The notes beneath the pieces are model-generated. The model did no database searches and had not been told where the DNA came from. It saw only the letters and a program-made list of their open reading frames with translations. The position numbers and the translations under genes are program-made. DNA of 64,000 nucleotides. Source: Halapricum salinum. Lineage in GTDB: Archaea; Halobacteriota; Halobacteria; Halobacteriales; Haloarculaceae. Location of the stretch: NCBI RefSeq assembly GCF_004799665.1, contig NZ_CP031310.1:2472887-2536886 (forward strand), in the 5' to 3' direction. Below are positions 33,132 through 42,610 of the stretch, piece after piece; the stretch's first letter is position 1, and each line of letters begins with the position of its first letter.

Positions 33132-33362
33132 GGGTCGTGATGGGGCCGCGCTACTCTTGGGCGTTCTGGCCGATAAACGAGTATGCGCGATATCGAACCT
33201 TCTGGGCGGTGAAGTTGAGACTATACCTGGTTTAGCGGGGCTGTGATGCGTGAACTTGGCCGGTTCTGTCAACGCAGACCACCTCAAATCACTCCCCAAG
33301 CGGTCATTCCTATCACACTTCCAATTGTATGGGCGAATTTTCGCGACTTCCAACAGTGTAGC

Positions 33363-33394
33363 CACTCAGACGGCGCGCTAACCTAGACTGAGTG
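33363..33394 (-). terminator. Hairpin just past the transposase stop
   Basis: CACTCAG (33363-33369) pairs with CTGAGTG (33388-33394), 5 bases after the transposase stop codon. It could end transcription or belong to the element's end. I could not identify terminal inverted repeats with confidence. Confidence 0.4.
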
Positions 33395-33399
33395 TCTCT

Positions 33400-35076
33400 C
33401 TATCCGATTCCAGTCTCCTTCTTCAGCAGCGTCAGCGTGTTGTCGGCTGTTACGATCGGTGAATGTTCGTACTCACCAGTCAACTCAACCTGCACGAGCA
33501 GATCGACAGCCCGCCAGATCGAGTACAACAGGCAGGCGAATGCGAAGTAGAAGAACCGTAGCCCGAAATCCTTCGACGTCGTCGCCGCCATGAACCGCTT
33601 TATAGATCTATAGCCGCTCTCGATCTCCCACCGATACCCGTACTCCGTGAGGTGACCACTCCCGCAATTCGTCATGAACACCGAATATTGTCGATGGTCG
33701 TCGTGCTCTGAGTCTTCTTTTCGACGATAGATGAGCGTCGTCTCGTGCCACTCGTTCTTCCCGAGGTGGAGCTTCCGGTCGGTCTCGTATCGGTCCCGGT
33801 CACGCTGGAGCAATCGCTTGGCCTGGGCTTTCTCGCTAGTCTGCATCCGCTTCGGAACGACGTAGGAGAGCCCTCGCTGGCTGATCATCTCCAAGACGTG
33901 CTGGCTATCGAACTCCCGGTCCATCAGCACGTTATCGACGTGAACGAGGTCCTCAGCCGAATCGAGCAAGTCTTCGACGATTTCCAGTCGTGTCTCCCCC
34001 TTTCGGACGGGGCGCGCGTCCAGCACGATTGGGACGGCATTGCCGACCAGCTGTACTGTCGCCCACTGGTAGGCGTATTGGTCACTCTTCTCTTTCGTTC
34101 CGATGATTTCGTCTTCGTAGCCCGTCCTGTCACCGGTGAAAGGGTCGGCTTCGGTAATGTCGATGGCGACGACTCCGGCTCGAAAGAACTGCTCTGTCTC
34201 CGCAACTTCGTTTAGGAGCCGAGTGGTGGCCTGCTGGTACATCCCTCGAATCTGTTCAATCGAGAGGTCTCGAATCTGCTCCCGATGAGCGTGCCCCAGC
34301 GGTGTCCGATCCCGAGTCGACTCGTAGAGGAAACTACGAGCACCTTCGTTTGCAGCCAGCCGCTCGCGAAGTCCGAGATATGTCTGCAGGCCCCAATAGG
34401 CGTTCTCGTGGATCTCACAGCCCTCCCCACGGTCCAGAGAGAACGCGGGAAAGACGACACGGCTGACGTGCTTGGTGACTCTATCGGCGTTGTCCAGAAT
34501 GGCTCGATCGTCTGGAACCGATTTGTCCACGTCATCGCCACGAGCCGGGAGGACCTGCTCCGGTTCGCGGGGGACGGTGACGTCGGCGTTCTGCGCTTTG
34601 ATGAGGATCGTTCGAGCCGCTTTCTGGACCGTCTCGCGAAACTCATCAGTGAAGCGTGTGTGCCAACTGCGCCAGAGTGTCGATTGGTCAGGCACTGTCT
34701 CCAGCCCAAGCCGCTCGCAAAGTTCCGGATGACTTTCGAGGTACTCGTAGAGTGCTGTTTCGTGCTCCCATCCGTGAAGTTCTTTCAGAACGAACACGCG
34801 AAACAGGGTGTCCATCTCGTAGTGTGTCGGACCCTCGTAGCAGTCGTGGGCCTCGAATTGGAAGTAGGCCAGCGGAAGTTCGGAGACGAACTGCTCAACA
34901 GAGATGTGCTTATGATGCGTGAACCAAGCTCCTGAGACGATCCGGACATCCGACTCTAATCCGGTAAGTGAGGTGCGGTCGTACAACGGTGTCGAATCGT
35001 ACGCTGGCCACTCAACGTACGACAGTCGTGCAATTTGTCGAAAGACGGTTCTCCGAGATTCAGTAGTAATGGGCAC
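33400..35076 (-). CDS. IS4-type DDE transposase
   Basis: 558 residues. DDE residues can be placed: Asp in GVVAIDITEADPFTG, Asp in VDNVLMDREFDSQHV, and Glu in the YREK-type motif YRWEIESGYRSIKRF that marks the IS4 superfamily. The N-terminal region (HYEMDTLFRVFVLKELHGW, YEYLESHPELCERLGLETVP) is the domain of unknown DNA-binding type found in these proteins. The frame is complete and has no stop, so it may be active. I cannot name the IS family, and no clear terminal repeats or target duplication were found. It lies inside the low-GC region. Confidence 0.85.
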   Translation of the reverse strand: MPITTESRRTVFRQIARLSYVEWPAYDSTPLYDRTSLTGLESDVRIVSGAWFTHHKHISVEQFVSELPLAYFQFEAHDCYEGPTHYEMDTLFRVFVLKELHGWEHETALYEYLESHPELCERLGLETVPDQSTLWRSWHTRFTDEFRETVQKAARTILIKAQNADVTVPREPEQVLPARGDDVDKSVPDDRAILDNADRVTKHVSRVVFPAFSLDRGEGCEIHENAYWGLQTYLGLRERLAANEGARSFLYESTRDRTPLGHAHREQIRDLSIEQIRGMYQQATTRLLNEVAETEQFFRAGVVAIDITEADPFTGDRTGYEDEIIGTKEKSDQYAYQWATVQLVGNAVPIVLDARPVRKGETRLEIVEDLLDSAEDLVHVDNVLMDREFDSQHVLEMISQRGLSYVVPKRMQTSEKAQAKRLLQRDRDRYETDRKLHLGKNEWHETTLIYRRKEDSEHDDHRQYSVFMTNCGSGHLTEYGYRWEIESGYRSIKRFMAATTSKDFGLRFFYFAFACLLYSIWRAVDLLVQVELTGEYEHSPIVTADNTLTLLKKETGIG

Positions 35077-35133
35077 TACCGGACAATCGTTCTGGCCCCC
35101 TCAAGAACACGTCTACATCTAACGAAAAGGCCC

Positions 35134-35148
35134 GCTTCTTACAGAAGC
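35134..35148 (-). terminator. Hairpin terminator after the pgsBC-like operon
   Basis: GCTTCT-TAC-AGAAGC lies 8 bases beyond the stop of the ligase gene. Read on the minus strand, it is followed by GGGCCTTTTCG, a short T run. This is a plausible stop for the two-gene minus-strand operon. Confidence 0.5.
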
Positions 35149-35155
35149 TGACGTT

Positions 35156-36796
35156 TTATTCGTGATCTTTTGGTTTAGTCGCTTCCGCGCTCCCCTGTTC
35201 AGAAATGTCAACAGCTTCGCTTGCCGAGGCAGCCTGTCTTTTCTCTTTCACTCGTTGTTCAATCGACGCCTGCATCTCACGCATAAACTCGTCCACCGTG
35301 TTACCCATGAGGATGACCGGTCGTCCATCGGTGAACAGTTCAGTTAGAACCTGCTCTGGGTCCGCATTTTGACTGTGGCACTTGGTTGGAACATCGACGT
35401 TTTCGGCGAATGCGCGTGTGTTAGCCCCACCGATGTGAGCTTCATCGATTAACTCTCGCTCGAATAGCAACTCGATATATTGAGCAAATGACGCTGTACG
35501 CCCCCGCCGGTCTCTTCGGAGGTACACGAACGGGGTGATACATTCGTCATCGACGAGCACCCGTCGAACCATCTCAGTACTTTCGACGTCGTTCACCTCG
35601 GCAGCGTTGAAGATGAGTCCGTCTTCAAGTTCTATCCACGTTGGTTGGATCGCACTGAGGAACGATTCGATCTCCTCGGCTGGAAGTGGCGGTTCGCCAA
35701 CAACATCTAACACCGCATTGACTGCGTGGATCGTTTCAGAACCGATTAGCCCTTCGTGTTCGTCGGGAATATCAACCTGCTCGATAGTCCCTCCGCGGCG
35801 TTCGATCTCTTTTTGCATATATTCGTGCAACACCGGGTGTTGCTCGCCGCTCACAACGTGTGTTCCCGCTGGGACCGACCGCGCAAACGAACGTGCAAGG
35901 TCTGTCCTGGTCTTTCCAAGGGTATCTGTGTGGTCCTGACGGACGTTTGTTAACACGATGATGTCCGGATCGGTCAGACGCTGGTTGAACAGCCGGGTCG
36001 TGTATTCTGTGATACCTTGATTCTCGAAGATAGCGACGTCGTCCGGCTCGTACGCATCGAGTTCGGGGACGAACTCAGCGATGAGACTGATATTCTCGTA
36101 GAGCGTCGTTCGAGGCCCCCGTCGTTCGATAGGATGGACCTCGCCGTTGTGGATCAGTAGTGGATGGTTGCCGGTGATCTTCGTGAGCGTGTCGTACCCT
36201 CGGCGGTTGAAGACGTCGTCGAGCCGTTGGGTGGTTGAGGATTTACCGCGAGTCCCCGAGACGACAATCTGGGTATCGATCTGATCGAGGACCTTACGAT
36301 GTCGGATACCTCTCGTTGCTTCACTCAATAGCCCTGTCAAACTCGACGAGCCAACTTCGATCGGTTTCGGACCGGTCTTCCATTCGTACTCGGCTCCAAC
36401 CAAGAACATCGGGAGCGCCCCCGCCGCATAGTCGAGGAACTGGTCCGCCGCGGACTCTGCCGACACTTCTGTCGGGAAGCGATCGGAACTGTGTCCCAGT
36501 ACTCCGTTTGCACTTTGGAGCCGCCAGACCCAGTTGTTTCGTTCTTCCGGGAGTTCTCCCGACGGTGTGGGTTCTTGTTCGACGATGATGTCGGGCGCGT
36601 CGACGTCGGTGTCTGGGAAGGACTTTTCATTCCCCGAGAGTTCTGCAACAGCGGCGCGAACGAGATCAATTGCTTCGCGAGCTGCTCGGGACGTGTCGTA
36701 GTGGCGACTGCCGGTTGCTAGTACCCCCGCTGGACCTCTAAGACGCCAGGACCAGCCGAATCCACGGCCGTAGATCTCGAAGGCGGTCCGACTCAT
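35156..36796 (-). CDS. PgsB/CapB-like ligase fused to two N-terminal YegP/HVO_2922-type domains
   Basis: 546 residues. From about residue 150 it is a Mur-ligase-type amide ligase of the PgsB/CapB class: P-loop SGTRGKSSTT (about 179-188), LTKITGNHPLLIHNG, FENQGITEYTTRLFNQ and VLTNVRQDHTDTLGKT. PgsB polymerises glutamate into poly-gamma-glutamate. Unlike PgsB, the first 125 residues are two DUF1508-like units: FEIYGRGFGWSWRLRGPAGV with ATGSRHYDT, and NNWVWRLQSANGVLGHSS with RFPTEVSAE. HVO_2922 and YegP are small proteins made only of such units. The start overlaps the previous gene by 4 bases. A C-terminal tail is Lys/Glu/Ala-rich. Product (PGA or other amide polymer) is inferred. Confidence 0.75.
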   Translation of the reverse strand: MSRTAFEIYGRGFGWSWRLRGPAGVLATGSRHYDTSRAAREAIDLVRAAVAELSGNEKSFPDTDVDAPDIIVEQEPTPSGELPEERNNWVWRLQSANGVLGHSSDRFPTEVSAESAADQFLDYAAGALPMFLVGAEYEWKTGPKPIEVGSSSLTGLLSEATRGIRHRKVLDQIDTQIVVSGTRGKSSTTQRLDDVFNRRGYDTLTKITGNHPLLIHNGEVHPIERRGPRTTLYENISLIAEFVPELDAYEPDDVAIFENQGITEYTTRLFNQRLTDPDIIVLTNVRQDHTDTLGKTRTDLARSFARSVPAGTHVVSGEQHPVLHEYMQKEIERRGGTIEQVDIPDEHEGLIGSETIHAVNAVLDVVGEPPLPAEEIESFLSAIQPTWIELEDGLIFNAAEVNDVESTEMVRRVLVDDECITPFVYLRRDRRGRTASFAQYIELLFERELIDEAHIGGANTRAFAENVDVPTKCHSQNADPEQVLTELFTDGRPVILMGNTVDEFMREMQASIEQRVKEKRQAASASEAVDISEQGSAEATKPKDHE

Positions 36797-37959
36797 GTTT
36801 CACCTCCTTCAGAGAGAATCGACGCCGAGAGGACCTCCTCTTCGCTTGGAGGTGACACGGTATACCAGTACGCGATACCCAAGGCAGCCACCCAGAGAAC
36901 CGCTGCAATCCCCAGGACAGGCAACGTCAGCTCTTGTGGAAACCCACGAGGTTGGGGAGCACTGAACAGTCGAGCGACGATCAAAGCGGGGACGAAGACC
37001 ACGATCTGAAGCGGGAGGACAAGGCGGCGCTCGAAGGGGGCCGACGCATGCGCGTTGTACGCCCCGACACCTGCCAAAATCGCAGTAAAGAACGCCGACA
37101 GTCCTCGCTCAATCGGTAAGACAAACGTCAGCGATACCGTAGCGAAGATCGCGACTGCGACAGTCACTCCGAGAAGGACTCGTCCGTACCGGAGTGTGAG
37201 GTAGTTCGACAACTGGATAAAGCCGAACGATAGCGCAAGCAAAAGGACGTACAGGATTACGAGCCAATAGCTCGCTAGCGCATAAATCGCGAGGAGGACC
37301 GCACCGATGATCCCGACACGAACACCGAACCGATCCCGGAGCCGTTCAGAGAGAACGAGCCCACCAGCGAACAGCCCGGCCACGATTTCTCGAGGGAGTA
37401 TGACAGATTCGGGATCGAGTGACACTGCAACACCTTTGAAAATAGCGACGTCTGCCGTCGAAGAGAAGAGGATCGGGGGTGTCAGCGTGCCAAATTGACG
37501 CGCAAATCCATTGGAAACCAGTACCCAACCGAGCGTAGTGAGGGCAATGAATAACCCGACGCTTGCCAGAATGTCGTTTCGACGATATTCCGGCTTGATT
37601 CGATGGTAATTGTACGCTGCTAGTCCTGGGAGAATACTGCCCAGAAACGCGATTACCCCCACGTCGATGCCTAGCTGGAGAACAAAAAAGAGCGTGATCA
37701 CTGGTACAATCGTTCCGATAACCATTGCTGCGACGAGTTCGTCACGACCGAAAAGTAACGTTCGGCGACGCAAGATCCACAGGCCGACGAAAGCGGCTGC
37801 AGCGCTCGACAGAAAGACCGGGAGCATCACGAAGTTCTTCAGCGTATATACAGCAAGAACGGGAACAGTAATCGATCCACCCATACGATACCCAGTAAGT
37901 TGGGTAATAATTCCAACGCTAAGAAGACCGATAACAGCGACTAGGGTGGCTACCCACAT
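36793..37959 (-). CDS. PgsC/CapC-like polytopic membrane protein, apparently duplicated
   Basis: 388 residues, about 10-12 transmembrane segments. Two halves look alike: LGSILPGLAAYNYHRIKPEY near residue 105-125 and FTAILAGVGAYNAHASAPFE near 290-310, each following a hydrophobic segment preceded by a charged loop. PgsC/CapC proteins are about 150 residues with one such unit, so this looks like a tandem duplication. Immediate coupling to the PgsB-like gene (4-base overlap) supports the assignment. PgsA/CapA is not encoded next to it. Similarity to PgsC is weak by eye. Confidence 0.6.
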   Translation of the reverse strand: MWVATLVAVIGLLSVGIITQLTGYRMGGSITVPVLAVYTLKNFVMLPVFLSSAAAAFVGLWILRRRTLLFGRDELVAAMVIGTIVPVITLFFVLQLGIDVGVIAFLGSILPGLAAYNYHRIKPEYRRNDILASVGLFIALTTLGWVLVSNGFARQFGTLTPPILFSSTADVAIFKGVAVSLDPESVILPREIVAGLFAGGLVLSERLRDRFGVRVGIIGAVLLAIYALASYWLVILYVLLLALSFGFIQLSNYLTLRYGRVLLGVTVAVAIFATVSLTFVLPIERGLSAFFTAILAGVGAYNAHASAPFERRLVLPLQIVVFVPALIVARLFSAPQPRGFPQELTLPVLGIAAVLWVAALGIAYWYTVSPPSEEEVLSASILSEGGET

Positions 37960-38012
37960 TGTGAGTATCTATCGGCTTGTGCATCTTTACTGTTTCAATT
38001 CAGGACGGTTGC

Positions 38013-38384
38013 TTACTCGAGAGTTTGCTGTACCCGTCCGTAAAGCTCGGATTTATTGAATGGCTTGGCAAGGAAGTCGTCCGCGCCCGCCTCGAGTGCT
38101 CGAACGATGTCCTCTTCCCGGCTCCGAGACGTCAGCATAATAACCGGCATATCCTGCATCCCGTCGTTCTCTCGGATATGGTCCAGAACCGAAAACCCGT
38201 CCATATCTGGCATCATGACGTCGAGAATGACCGCTTTCGGTAGTGAACCTGGGGACTCTTCTAAGCACTCCCATGCCTCCCGACCATCTTTTACAGTCTC
38301 GACGTCGAAATCCCCACTGAGACTAACGTCGATCATTTCTCTGATGTCTTCGTCGTCGTCAGCAGCCAGAATTTCCGCAGGCAT
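38013..38384 (-). CDS. Single-domain response regulator (CheY-like)
   Basis: 123 residues from the ATG at 38384 (MPAEILAADDDEDIREMI); an ATG at 38426 adds 14 residues. Receiver motifs: DDDE acidic pocket, phosphoacceptor Asp in VILDVMMPDMDGFSVL, Thr/Ser in MLTSRS and Lys in DDFLAKPFNKSE. No output domain. It is divergent from the 1301-residue kinase that lacks a usable receiver, so it could take phosphate from that kinase. Confidence 0.88.
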   Translation of the reverse strand: MPAEILAADDDEDIREMIDVSLSGDFDVETVKDGREAWECLEESPGSLPKAVILDVMMPDMDGFSVLDHIRENDGMQDMPVIMLTSRSREEDIVRALEAGADDFLAKPFNKSELYGRVQQTLE

Positions 38385-38537
38385 ACTAGTAGCGTATGCG
38401 TCCCTTTTGCTTATATTGACCGCCATACGAAAATCTCCCCGATTAGTGCGATTTTTTAGTCGTCAGCGACCTCGATAGCCCACTATGATGTCTCGCAAGA
38501 CACACTTAAACAGTTAGACAGTCAAATCTCAGTAACT

Positions 38538-41500
38538 GTGCTCGGTACTACTGACGAACTCGACGATCCTATCCGCGTCCTCTACGTGAACTCCGATCCC
38601 GCGTTCGCGGAGTTGGTTCAAACCAAGCTCCAACAAACGAGTACCGAGATCGATTGTATACCTGCCGACGGTCTCGACGAAGCACTGCACAATCTTGCTG
38701 CGGACCGGATCGACTGTATCGTAACGGCGTACTCGCTCGACGATTCGGACGGTATCGGGCTTACGGAGTCGATTCGCCAACAGAACGATGATATCCCGAT
38801 AATCCTCTTTACTGGACAGGGGAGTGAGGAGATCGCGAGCGAAGCGACTCGTGCCGGCGTATCGGACTACATCCCAGTCCGGTCGGAGCGTGACAACTTC
38901 ACACTGCTCGCGGCCCGCATTCGAACACTCACGAGGGCTGCTCGCAAGCGCACGGAGGCTGAGCAGACGAAACGGCGCTTCCGACGAACGCTCGAACGCG
39001 CGACTGACGCGATTTACGCCGTCGACAGCGACTGGCGCATCGAGTATATAAACGAGAAGATGGCCGAGCGAGTCGAACGTGACCCGGACGCGATCGTCGG
39101 ACAAACCATCTGGGAGGAGTTCCCGTCGATCGTTGGGACGGAACTCGAAGACAAGTATCGAACGGCGATGGAGACTGGTGAACCGGTATCGTTCGAACAG
39201 TGGCTGGGAGAGCCGTTCGGCTACTGGGTCGAAGTGCGAGCGTTTCCAGATGACGACGGGCTGACCGTCTTTTCACGCGAAATTACTGCCGAGCGAGAAC
39301 GGGAACTGGAGCTAGAGCGCAGTGACGCGATTCTGGAGAACATCCACGACGTCGTGTTCGTCCTCGGCGAGCAGGGTGATATCGAGTTCGCGAATACGGC
39401 TGCGAAGCGGTTGCTCGCAGGGGATCAGTCGGCCCAGATTATCGGTCAACAGATCGAAACGGTCGTCGGTGACCGCGTTAGCGATTCCGATGCTACCCGT
39501 TTCTCCCAGGCAGTCGAGTCGACACTTGACGAGGTCGAGAGCGATGGTGGGTCGACAGGGTTGTACGATACAGACCTACAGCTCGACGTTGTGGCCGGGG
39601 CCAGTGAACGAACGCTCGACGTCCGGGTAACGCCGTTCCAGAGTCGAAAGCGGAAGCAGATACTCGTTGTCGCTCGAGACGTTACCGAACAAAGCGAGGT
39701 GAACCGGCAACTGGAACGGGAGCGTGACGGACTCCAGGACCTCCAAGCCGTCATGGCAGAAAGCGATGTCTCGGCCGAGTCACGCCTCCAGAATCTACTG
39801 GAAGTCGGTTGCCAGACGCTCGGACTGGAAATCGGCATCGTCTCGCGGATTCAGGAGAGCGACTACACGGTCGAAGCAGTTCACGCACCAGAGGCTGATA
39901 TCGAAGCTGGCGATCAGTTCGATCTCGCATCGACGTACTGTGCTGAAGTCGTCGGCACGGATTCGGTCTGTTCGTTTGCAGACGCCGTTAGCGACGGGAA
40001 AGAGACGCATCCTGCCTACCGTGAGTTCGAGTTAGAATCGTACATCGGCGTGCCACTCGTCGTCGACGACACGCGTTACGGAACCGTCAATTTCTCGAGT
40101 CCGACAACGCGAGTCGCGCCGTTCGGAGCGCTCGAACGAACGTTCGTCGAGCTGGTCACACAACTCGTGAGTACCGAAATCTCGCGTCGTCGTGACCGTG
40201 CCGAACTCGAACGTCAGGAGTTCCTCTTCGACCGCGTTCAGGACATCGCAGATATCGGTATATGGGAATTCATCCCATCGAGCGGCGAACTCGCCTGGTC
40301 TGACGGGGTCCGCCAGATCCACGGTGTCGACGAGGACTACGAGCCCCCCCTCGACGACGCGATCGAGTTCTACCACCCCGACGACAGAGAGACGATTACC
40401 GCAGCAGTCGACCGAGCAATCGAAGACGGGGAACCGTACGACCTTAACCTCCGAATCGTTCGACCCGACGGAGCGGTGCGTGACGTCCGGGCGTGGGGAG
40501 AATACGTCGACGACACACAGCGCGGCGACGCAGTACTTCGGGGTGTTTTTCAGGACATCACGGAGCGAGAAGCGGAACGCCGTGAGCATCGAGAGCTCGC
40601 GGAGGAATACGAGGCGTTGCTCGAAACGTCCGGGGACGCGATATTCTTGCTTGATGTCGATACCGCTGGTGAGGACCCATCATTCGAGTTCGCCAGACTC
40701 AGTCCCGGATACGAGTCACAGACCGGAATTACGACCGAGGAAGTTCGCGGCAAGACCCCACGAGACGTGTTTGGCGACCAGGAGGGTGCTGAACTCGAGG
40801 CCAATTACACTCGCTGCGTCGATCAGGGGGCCCCAATCTCGTATCGCGAAGAACTCGACATCGGTGACGGTGCGCAGTTCTGGGAGACCAGCCTCGCACC
40901 GGTCGTCGTCGATGGCGAGACTGTTCGAATTGTGGGTATCGCTCGAAACGTTACCGAGCAAGTCGAACGAGAGCGTGAACTCGAAGCGACGAACCAGCGA
41001 CTGGAATCGCTCATCGAGGCCACGCCACTCACCGTCATGGAGATCGACACGGATGGGACCGTCATCCGCTGGAACGACGAGGCTGAAACCATGTTCGGCT
41101 GGTCGCAGGACGAAGTGCTTGGCGAGTTCAATCCGATGGTCCCGGACGAGCAGCAGGAAGAGTTTGCCTCACACCGGCAGCGCGTCCTGAGCGGCGAGCG
41201 AATCCGAGCAAAGGAGATACGGCGAGAGACGAAAGACGGAGACGAACTGGACCTGCTCTTGTCGGTCGCGCCGGTTACAAGCCCCGACGGAGAGACTACG
41301 AGCATCCTCGCTGTCTTGGAGGACATAACCGAACAGAAACGGTTGGAAGCTCGCCTCCGCTCGCTTCAGGACACCGCACAATCGCTCAGCGGCGCTGAAT
41401 CAAGCGAGGAAATCGGAGCGATCGCCGTCGATGCCGCGGCCGAGATACTGGACCTCGATATCACCGGAATTTGGGAGTACGACGACCGAGAGAACGTGCT

Positions 41501-42443
41501 CGCCCCAATTACGGAAACGTCCGAAGCACGAGACCTGTTTGGCGAGTCTCCCCGGTTCACTCCTGGAGACAGTCTCGCTTGGGACGTGTTTGAGTCCGGA
41601 GAAACCCAGGTATATGATGATATCCAAGCTGAGGGGCAACCCCACAACCCGAACACAGAGATACGGAGTGAGATTCTCGTCCCACTAGGTGAGTATGGGC
41701 TCATGTCGACGGGGTCAGTTTCCACGCAGGTCTTTTCTGAGACGGACGTCGACCTGTTCCGGATTCTCGGTGCGACTGTCGAGGCAGCACTCGCACGAGC
41801 GAGCAGGGAGGAAGAACTACACCGACAGAACGAACGACTCGACCAGTTCGCGAGCGTCGTTGCCCACGACCTTCGAAACCCGCTCTCTGTCGCAATGGGG
41901 TTCCTCGAAATCGCGGAGGAGACCGGGAAGGCGGAGCACTTTGAAAAAGTAGAATCCGCACACGACCGAATTGAACGACTCATCGAGGACCTCCTGACGC
42001 TGGCACGTGGGGAGACGACGATCGAGGATGCAGAAGAGATCGACCTCGAGAGTATTACGACAGAAGCGTGGGGATACGTCGACACGGAGGAGGCAACGCT
42101 TACAGTCGCAGATGGAATTCCGACAGTCACCGGGGATGCAGGGCGGCTGACCCAACTCTTCGAGAATCTCTTCCGAAATGCAATCGAGCACGGTGGTGCC
42201 GACGTCACGGTGACCGTGGGTGGACTAGACGGAGACGATGGATTCTACGTTGAGGATACCGGCAGCGGGATTCCCCAGGAGAAGCAAGACGACGTGTTCA
42301 AACACGGCGTCACGTCCAGCGAGGGGGGAACCGGGTTCGGGCTCTCGATTGTGGCCGACATCGCGAAGGCGCACGGTTGGACAGTTTCGGTGACAGACGG
42401 AAGCAATGGCGGGGCACGGTTCGAGTTCAAGCGGTCGAAATAG
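38538..42443 (+). CDS. Large histidine kinase with degenerate receiver, PAS and GAF domains
   Basis: 1301 residues starting at a GTG; a TATA-like CTTAAAC lies about 30 bases upstream. Residues 8-130 are a receiver-like domain in which the acidic DD is NSD and the phosphoacceptor is Ala64 (DCIVTAYSLDDSDG). Then come two PAS domains, a GAF domain (about 400-560, CxS-like VCSFADAV), three further PAS domains (about 560-950), a second GAF (about 950-1085), HisKA (FASVVAHDLRNPLSVAM, His in AHDLR) and an ATPase domain (LFENLFRNAIEHGG, DTGSGIPQEKQ, GTGFGLSIV). No membrane segments. Lower GC than the surrounding backbone. Confidence 0.88.
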   Translation: MLGTTDELDDPIRVLYVNSDPAFAELVQTKLQQTSTEIDCIPADGLDEALHNLAADRIDCIVTAYSLDDSDGIGLTESIRQQNDDIPIILFTGQGSEEIASEATRAGVSDYIPVRSERDNFTLLAARIRTLTRAARKRTEAEQTKRRFRRTLERATDAIYAVDSDWRIEYINEKMAERVERDPDAIVGQTIWEEFPSIVGTELEDKYRTAMETGEPVSFEQWLGEPFGYWVEVRAFPDDDGLTVFSREITAERERELELERSDAILENIHDVVFVLGEQGDIEFANTAAKRLLAGDQSAQIIGQQIETVVGDRVSDSDATRFSQAVESTLDEVESDGGSTGLYDTDLQLDVVAGASERTLDVRVTPFQSRKRKQILVVARDVTEQSEVNRQLERERDGLQDLQAVMAESDVSAESRLQNLLEVGCQTLGLEIGIVSRIQESDYTVEAVHAPEADIEAGDQFDLASTYCAEVVGTDSVCSFADAVSDGKETHPAYREFELESYIGVPLVVDDTRYGTVNFSSPTTRVAPFGALERTFVELVTQLVSTEISRRRDRAELERQEFLFDRVQDIADIGIWEFIPSSGELAWSDGVRQIHGVDEDYEPPLDDAIEFYHPDDRETITAAVDRAIEDGEPYDLNLRIVRPDGAVRDVRAWGEYVDDTQRGDAVLRGVFQDITEREAERREHRELAEEYEALLETSGDAIFLLDVDTAGEDPSFEFARLSPGYESQTGITTEEVRGKTPRDVFGDQEGAELEANYTRCVDQGAPISYREELDIGDGAQFWETSLAPVVVDGETVRIVGIARNVTEQVERERELEATNQRLESLIEATPLTVMEIDTDGTVIRWNDEAETMFGWSQDEVLGEFNPMVPDEQQEEFASHRQRVLSGERIRAKEIRRETKDGDELDLLLSVAPVTSPDGETTSILAVLEDITEQKRLEARLRSLQDTAQSLSGAESSEEIGAIAVDAAAEILDLDITGIWEYDDRENVLAPITETSEARDLFGESPRFTPGDSLAWDVFESGETQVYDDIQAEGQPHNPNTEIRSEILVPLGEYGLMSTGSVSTQVFSETDVDLFRILGATVEAALARASREEELHRQNERLDQFASVVAHDLRNPLSVAMGFLEIAEETGKAEHFEKVESAHDRIERLIEDLLTLARGETTIEDAEEIDLESITTEAWGYVDTEEATLTVADGIPTVTGDAGRLTQLFENLFRNAIEHGGADVTVTVGGLDGDDGFYVEDTGSGIPQEKQDDVFKHGVTSSEGGTGFGLSIVADIAKAHGWTVSVTDGSNGGARFEFKRSK

Positions 42444-42484
42444 TACCCGTTGTCAGTGAGCAAACCGTGCCTGCGGCCTATGCA

Positions 42485-42503
42485 TTGAGAGAGCCAGTCT
42501 CAA
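42485..42503 (+). terminator. Hairpin downstream of the large histidine kinase
   Basis: TTGAGA-GAGCCAG-TCTCAA lies 41 bases past the kinase stop codon and could act as a transcript end. No strong T run follows. The rest of the 167-base gap has no other recognisable feature apart from a probable promoter for the next gene. Confidence 0.35.
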
Positions 42504-42610
42504 CTTCCATTCTGGGCGAGTCTGCTATCGACGGACCGTGACATATAGAAACGCACTCGCCCTAGCTTCGACAGCGTCGTGCTCGCAACCACGTCCTCGA
42601 CTGTTTCACG

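Follow-up and report, generated by a model that had tools for sequence, protein, structure and literature searches.

The window analyzed here is a 64,000-nucleotide stretch of the Halapricum salinum contig NZ_CP031310.1, and our subject is a pair of minus-strand genes within it that encode, in this order, a doubled PgsC-like membrane protein of 388 aa (36793..37959) and a PgsB-like ligase of 546 aa with an N-terminal tandem of DUF1508 units (35156..36796). The two open reading frames overlap by 4 bases, and the pair is present in a single copy in this 3.45-Mb, one-contig haloarchaeal genome. An earlier note, made from the letters of the window alone, had placed both genes at the right coordinates and in the right frames, and had suggested that the two proteins may form a variant amide-polymer synthase.

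The ligase and its doubled membrane partner

The TIGR04012 (PgsB) profile matches residues 164-341 of the 546-aa protein with E 3e-24 and 85.5 bits, which misses the equivalog cut-off of 222.7, and there are further matches, weaker than that to TIGR04012, to Mur_ligase_M (E 6e-5) and to FolC and Mur ligase families. The FolC/Mur-type core spans residues 160-520 (35237..36319, minus strand). In an AlphaFold model of the protein (mean pLDDT 82.9), residues ~144-520 align by VIA-align with a Z of ~17 to MurF and FPGS/FolC; Foldseek returned FolC as the best matches to this model, and a sequence search of solved structures gave weak FolC matches and nothing stronger. Furthermore, 44 homologue rows show no variation at the P-loop G181-x-R183-G184-K185, at E258-N259-Q260 or at N284-x-R286-x-D288-H289. 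Of the features of the broad PgsB family, a GxRGK[ST] P-loop, Mur-type catalytic residues and an adjacent PgsC, here the overlapping PF14102 protein, are present. Given the match to the ligase fold together with the invariant motifs, the core looks catalytically intact. Among near relatives, dN/dS is ~0.1 for the DUF1508 part, the core and PgsC alike. An N-terminal membrane helix, which is reported for most Bacillus PgsB proteins (PMC6029982), was not found, with none of 36 homologue rows reaching a hydropathy of 1.6.

The membrane protein matches PF14102 (PgsC/CapC) in two stretches with 97.4 bits, above the gathering cut-off of 27, and no NCBIfam family, the single-unit PgsC equivalog TIGR04011 (cut-off 96.45) included, matches it at E up to 1. 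Residues 1-160 match residues 185-372 by HHalign at 99.7% probability (E 1e-25, 147 columns), as against 14.7% for the best of 20 shuffles and 1.6% for a reversed half, which bears out the internal repeat of two PgsC units proposed in the earlier note. Copy 1 covers residues 1-153 (37501..37959) and copy 2 residues 192-338 (36946..37386), both on the minus strand. Positive charges lie at corresponding loops in both copies, and the two are therefore predicted to face the same way; an inverted repeat was considered and rejected on this charge pattern. The structure model has six main helices per copy and one extra near the end. A sequence search of the PDB found no match to PgsC, Foldseek returned none at E up to 0.001, and the best VIA-align Z against the PDB was 5.7, which is not a convincing match, although such an absence is not proof of a new fold. 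The doubling is real but is no oddity of the window; it is the rule in these archaea. Of the 57 distinct loci that have a PgsC, 56 carry it doubled within a single frame, and in the sole exception (L102) it is split over two frames.

Natrialba aegyptia, which is reported to secrete L-polyglutamate (L-PGA) (PMC4187202), provides a yardstick for the low profile scores. Its loci L098 and L101 combine a doubled PgsC with a similar ligase core and lack DUF1508. The L098 proteins score 100.6 bits on TIGR04012 (PgsB) and 41.3 bits on TIGR04011 (PgsC), both under the cut-offs; thus, the cut-offs of the bacterial models miss even the producer species, and the 85.5 bits of the window ligase fall within the range of that species. 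The suggestion of a variant amide-polymer synthase is well supported by the seemingly intact FolC/Mur core, by the constant doubled PgsC, and by the same PgsC architecture in an L-polyglutamate producer, and we consider it likely that the pair is a gamma-glutamyl polymer synthase.

Distribution and the tandem DUF1508 extension

Strong PgsB matches (E up to 1e-70) occur in 20 of 97 related genomes and matches with E up to 0.001 in 34; the 14 genomes thereby excluded include one with a degenerate pair (G080), one with a piece at a contig end (G064), and others with weak matches to DUF1508 only or to other Mur-type proteins. A scan of genome contigs yielded 58 loci, which belong to halophilic methanogens as well as to numerous haloarchaeal genera. 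The set under comparison comprises 83 loci, of which 75 have a complete core; 61 of the 75 are distinct, the exclusions being eight loci with incomplete or degenerate (L062, L063) cores and 14 duplicates. The two degenerate loci (L062:7874-10147 and L063:6441-8747) hold a PgsB/PgsC-like pair adjoined by a glutamine-amidotransferase gene in two genomes, and the L062 ligase, the one of the two that was aligned, no longer has a P-loop or an ENQ motif.

With respect to earlier work, a PgsB-PgsC pair in haloarchaea is not new, since a 2006 report on Haloquadratum walsbyi describes capB and capC as capsule genes for poly-gamma-glutamate (PMC1544339); moreover, plasmid records already carry the name PgsC/CapC for the membrane protein. 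A 2025 paper calls archaeal CapB ubiquitous in Halobacteria (PMC11915815), whereas strong PgsB matches are found in a minority of the related genomes. A 2015 survey is reported to have detected no PgsC in archaea (PMC4497714); that survey evidently missed the fused, divergent archaeal form. The published puzzle that polyglutamate-making archaea seemed to be devoid of PgsC (PMC4497714) is thereby accounted for: they have a divergent, double-length fusion. In the partly accessible literature, we recognized no account of archaeal PgsC duplication or of a DUF1508-PgsB fusion.

The two DUF1508 units placed ahead of the ligase by the earlier note cover residues 4-52 (36641..36787) and 86-132 (36401..36541), both on the minus strand. 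Pfam PF07411 recovers one unit of the window PgsB (residues 15-50) at 21.2 bits, below its gathering cut-off of 22, which the homologues L045 (28.0 bits) and L047 (62.7 bits) pass, and the HVO_2922 equivalog NF041908 gives 18.3 bits against a cut-off of 90. When profiles of the units built from 26 distinct N-termini were compared with canonical DUF1508 by HHalign, both units matched, with probabilities of 97.1 (unit 1) and 97.6 (unit 2) as against best values of 3.9 and 1.8 among 20 column shuffles per unit; the two units match each other at 97.8. In the AlphaFold model they form two beta-beta-beta-alpha units, and the profile matches together with the tandem arrangement assign the extension to the DUF1508 superfamily; in the fold search of the whole model, the match list is filled by the ligase. 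Comparison with four near relatives gives a dN/dS of 0.10-0.13 for the DUF1508 part, which indicates purifying selection; the DSGEGY residues that are common in canonical units are not retained in it.

The fusion is likewise genuine but not peculiar to the window. The extension is present in 25 of the 61 distinct loci, as counted with an N-terminal profile built from 8 of the counted loci themselves. In a tree of the 61 cores, all 25 DUF1508-bearing loci fall within one 32-row clade (support 100/100) that reaches the halophilic methanogens. Seven rows of this clade are without the full extension: five of them group in a single subclade, L091 retains unit 2, and L080 has no more than a short remnant. 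In the most parsimonious history, the fusion arose once and was lost once afterwards, apart from the truncations in L080 and L091. The window pair belongs to a variant of the PgsB-PgsC synthase that recurs among archaea and in which the DUF1508 fusion marks one clade. Elsewhere, the PgsB homologue at L047:7321-9372 has DUF1508 pairs at both ends, the C-terminal pair being canonical (PF07411, 62.7 bits), and a CapA-domain gene lies directly downstream of it; in the genome of the window, L065:8493-10064 encodes a 523-aa protein in which five DUF1508 units are accompanied by a DUF7139 match at the N-terminus.

As for what the units do, the suggestion of the earlier note that they act on the substrate or a binding partner is supported in part: they are conserved (dN/dS ~0.1) and occupy the place of the membrane anchor of bacterial PgsB, a position that favors docking or regulation. 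Any specific role can be put forward only tentatively. A competing idea, in line with the earlier note, is that the pair binds the growing polymer or its acceptor and raises processivity or sets chain length. The N-terminal fusion to the ligase in 25 of 61 distinct loci, the recurrence of DUF1508 at the C-terminus in L047 and the purifying selection on the units would suit such binding, whereas the loss of DSGEGY and the short-form homologues, including those of the producer species, that are wholly devoid of DUF1508 argue against it, and we hold it to be rather doubtful.

The transposon and its two-component system

The window copy of the PgsB-PgsC pair is, as its flanking sequences indicate, the cargo of a transposon of 9.3 kb (33209..42509). 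This element has 12-bp terminal inverted repeats (GAAGTTGAGACT at 33211..33222 on the left and AGTCTCAACTTC at 42496..42507 on the right, both given for the plus strand) and is flanked by a 9-bp target-site duplication, TTCTGGGCG, at 33200..33208 and 42510..42518, features that identify a DNA transposon; duplications of at least 7 bp arise at 0.3% of random positions. At its left end, a minus-strand gene (33400..35076) encodes a DDE transposase of 558 aa with DDE_Tnp_1 and DUF772 and a weak ISH3 match (98.2 bits, short of the ISH3-family cut-off of 225). A simple insertion sequence was rejected as the context of this transposase, there being no right end close to it. The G+C content is ~65% in most of the window and ~56% over 32-40 kb.

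Elements with the same ends are found in Haloferax gibbonsii (7-bp duplication, kinase gene partly missing), Halohasta salina (8-bp duplication) and Halopenitus persicus (no duplication found, another element abutting), and on a Halorarius halobius plasmid, where the same ends and kinase accompany a different PgsBC pair (8-bp duplication). The window PgsB is 98% identical to that of Haloferax gibbonsii and 97% identical to that of Halopenitus persicus. When the window is compared with Haloferax gibbonsii (L066), the core of the ligase has a dS of 0.02, as against 0.28 for its DUF1508 part and 0.39 for PgsC; this mosaic points to recombination within the element. The transposase family is present in 26 of 97 genomes (E up to 1e-150). 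Among 20 further loci, 14 have a right end that scores at least 19 of 21 and lies 2.8-12.2 kb away from the left one; seven of these 14 elements show a 7-10-bp duplication; five of the other six have a left end and no convincing right end, and L145 has no left end under the criterion of the script. The family (window 33209-42509; L139-L158) thus combines one left-end DDE transposase with a variable cargo, ~3-12 kb in total, which may be PgsBC with a two-component system, an ArsA ATPase, a zinc-type ABC transporter, or a giant surface protein with a regulator. The element that abuts the PgsBC element of Halopenitus persicus (L067:9589-13638) is of the same family, and, judged by eye, its cargo resembles a flavoprotein reductase, a transporter of the small multidrug type and a TrmB-like regulator. 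The literature accessible in part yielded no recognized account of this transposon family.

The remaining cargo is a two-component system, which, like the transposon, had escaped the earlier note. The operon is headed by a receiver-only response regulator of 137 aa (38013..38426, minus strand like PgsC), with 53 bp separating it from PgsC, and the gene for a hybrid sensor histidine kinase of 1301 aa with receiver, PAS, GAF, HisKA and HATPase domains (38538..42443, plus strand) diverges from that of the regulator. The order regulator-PgsC-PgsB recurs, with differing kinases, in 14 distinct DUF1508-bearing loci, and the short-form locus L114 has just a 44-residue piece of the regulator. Since the regulator has no output domain, it should act via another protein, for which the DUF1508 pair of PgsB is a candidate.

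Probable product, proposed mechanism and known systems

Taken together, these observations lead us to favor, as reasonably probable, an archaeal PgsB-PgsC-type synthase of poly-gamma-glutamate (or of a closely related gamma-glutamyl polymer) that carries a DUF1508 docking or regulatory module and travels as transposon cargo. The sequence itself shows the domain composition, the doubling, the conservation of the ligase motifs, the purifying selection, the order of the genes and the ends of the transposon. With nearly the same confidence we predict unmodified L-polyglutamate as the product. The synthase is probably L-specific: no PgsA is adjacent, as the earlier note had observed, the sole CapA/PgsA-domain gene of the genome lying ~0.2 Mb from the pair, and Bacillus subtilis pgsBC without pgsA is reported to give a 95% L polymer (PMC6029982), so that a PgsA-less operon fits an L-type product. 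A link to polyglutamate is also seen in the distribution of polyglutamate-hydrolase-like genes, which occur in 9 of 20 PgsB genomes vs 6 of 77 others; a Gamma_PGA_hydro-type hydrolase gene accompanies 12 of the 61 distinct loci and is confirmed by Pfam in five.

Several points weigh against this interpretation. The TIGR04012 score of the ligase lies far below the cut-off, and the first half of the core alone is matched. All 12 hydrolase-bearing loci have the short form of PgsB; a hydrolase gene is absent from all 25 DUF1508-bearing loci and from the genome of the window. CapA is present in 16 of 20 PgsB genomes vs 25 of 77 others and lies within six of the 61 loci (two DUF1508-bearing, four short-form); given this enrichment and the CapA/PgsA gene elsewhere in the genome, a distant PgsA may take part. 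A nearby regulator is missing in 11 of the 25 distinct DUF1508-bearing loci, and gating by the regulator therefore cannot be the general role of DUF1508, an explanation that we rejected on this count. To our knowledge, DUF1508 has no established biochemical function; searches on YegP/UPF0339 and HVO_2922 found none, and the titles retrieved for DUF1508 lay outside this topic. The polymer made, the export function of PgsC, the specificity for L-glutamate and what DUF1508 and the regulator do are inferred.

The absence of hydrolase genes near the DUF1508-bearing loci would also suit a synthase making another gamma-linked polymer, for instance the poly-gamma-glutamine backbone of the Natronococcus glutaminylglycan, a glycosylated cell-wall polymer that has been described (PMC4243693) and in the synthesis of which archaeal CapB is suggested to act by a 2025 paper (PMC11915815). 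However, a species that produces the free polymer has a core and a PgsC to which those of these loci are homologous throughout, and the transposon genes are those for the transposase, PgsB, PgsC, the regulator and the kinase, with no glycosyltransferase or amidotransferase among them, which makes this alternative improbable. That the cargo is inert or decaying, with no polymer made in this host and the transposon a mere carrier, is very unlikely, for all the single copy on a transposon, the lack of a hydrolase in the genome and the mosaic divergence, because all frames are intact, the ligase motifs are invariant, and dN/dS is ~0.1 in the DUF1508 part, the core and PgsC.

Under the favored interpretation of a mobile gamma-glutamyl polymer synthase, the PgsB core would, at the expense of ATP, activate the growing chain at its gamma-carboxylate and join the next glutamate to it, as in FolC, and PgsC, a covalent dimer of same-facing units, would tether the ligase to the membrane and pass the chain out, with the lack of a PgsA encoded with the pair fitting an L-type product. 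The two DUF1508 units would form a cytosolic module at the position of the bacterial anchor, docking the ligase on PgsC or, at loci that have one, on the receiver-only regulator; the latter docking could let the neighboring sensor kinase gate synthesis, and the whole gene set would move as cargo of the 9.3-kb transposon. In its most specific form, which we offer as a speculation with little chance of being right in full, this is a transposable, self-regulated module in which the kinase phosphorylates the regulator and the regulator binds the DUF1508 pair of PgsB, thereby switching an L-specific, PgsA-free synthase on a covalent PgsC dimer. If so, it would provide the first function for DUF1508, show PgsC working as a same-facing dimer, and mean that haloarchaea can gain extracellular polymer synthesis in one transposition. 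Short of that, the natural PgsC fusion predicts that bacterial PgsC, for which sequence and fold searches gave us no solved structure, works as a same-facing dimer; the widespread DUF1508 gains a concrete, testable setting; and a putative surface-polymer synthase with its own sensor appears to move between haloarchaeal genera on a cargo-bearing transposon.

Comparison with known systems places each part of the locus. The transposon resembles ISH3-type haloarchaeal insertion sequences through a distant similarity of the transposase and differs from them in having several kb of cargo between the transposase and the right end. The ligase core shares the fold of FolC/FPGS folylpolyglutamate synthase, the chemistry of which is gamma-glutamyl ligation; unlike FolC/FPGS, it has a membrane partner and extra domains, and a folate acceptor is not expected. 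The N-terminal units are like the small DUF1508/YegP/HVO_2922 proteins in their tandem ~45-residue, beta-beta-beta-alpha arrangement in the model, whereas they are fused to a ligase, diverged and without DSGEGY. The Natrialba aegyptia loci (L098, L101) share the doubled PgsC, a similar core and similar sub-cut-off scores; in contrast to the window, they have no DUF1508 and no linked two-component system was seen, and in L098 a polyglutamate-hydrolase-like gene is adjacent. Compared with Bacillus subtilis pgsBCAE, the window PgsC is doubled in one chain and precedes PgsB in gene order, the ligase has two DUF1508 units in place of an N-terminal membrane helix, the second half of its core is divergent, and there is no adjacent PgsA. 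It nevertheless shares with bacterial PgsB/CapB-PgsC/CapC the GxRGK[ST] P-loop ligase and the adjacent PgsC-family membrane partner, that is, the pgsBC pair that in Bacillus subtilis is reported to be enough by itself for an L-rich polymer (PMC6029982).

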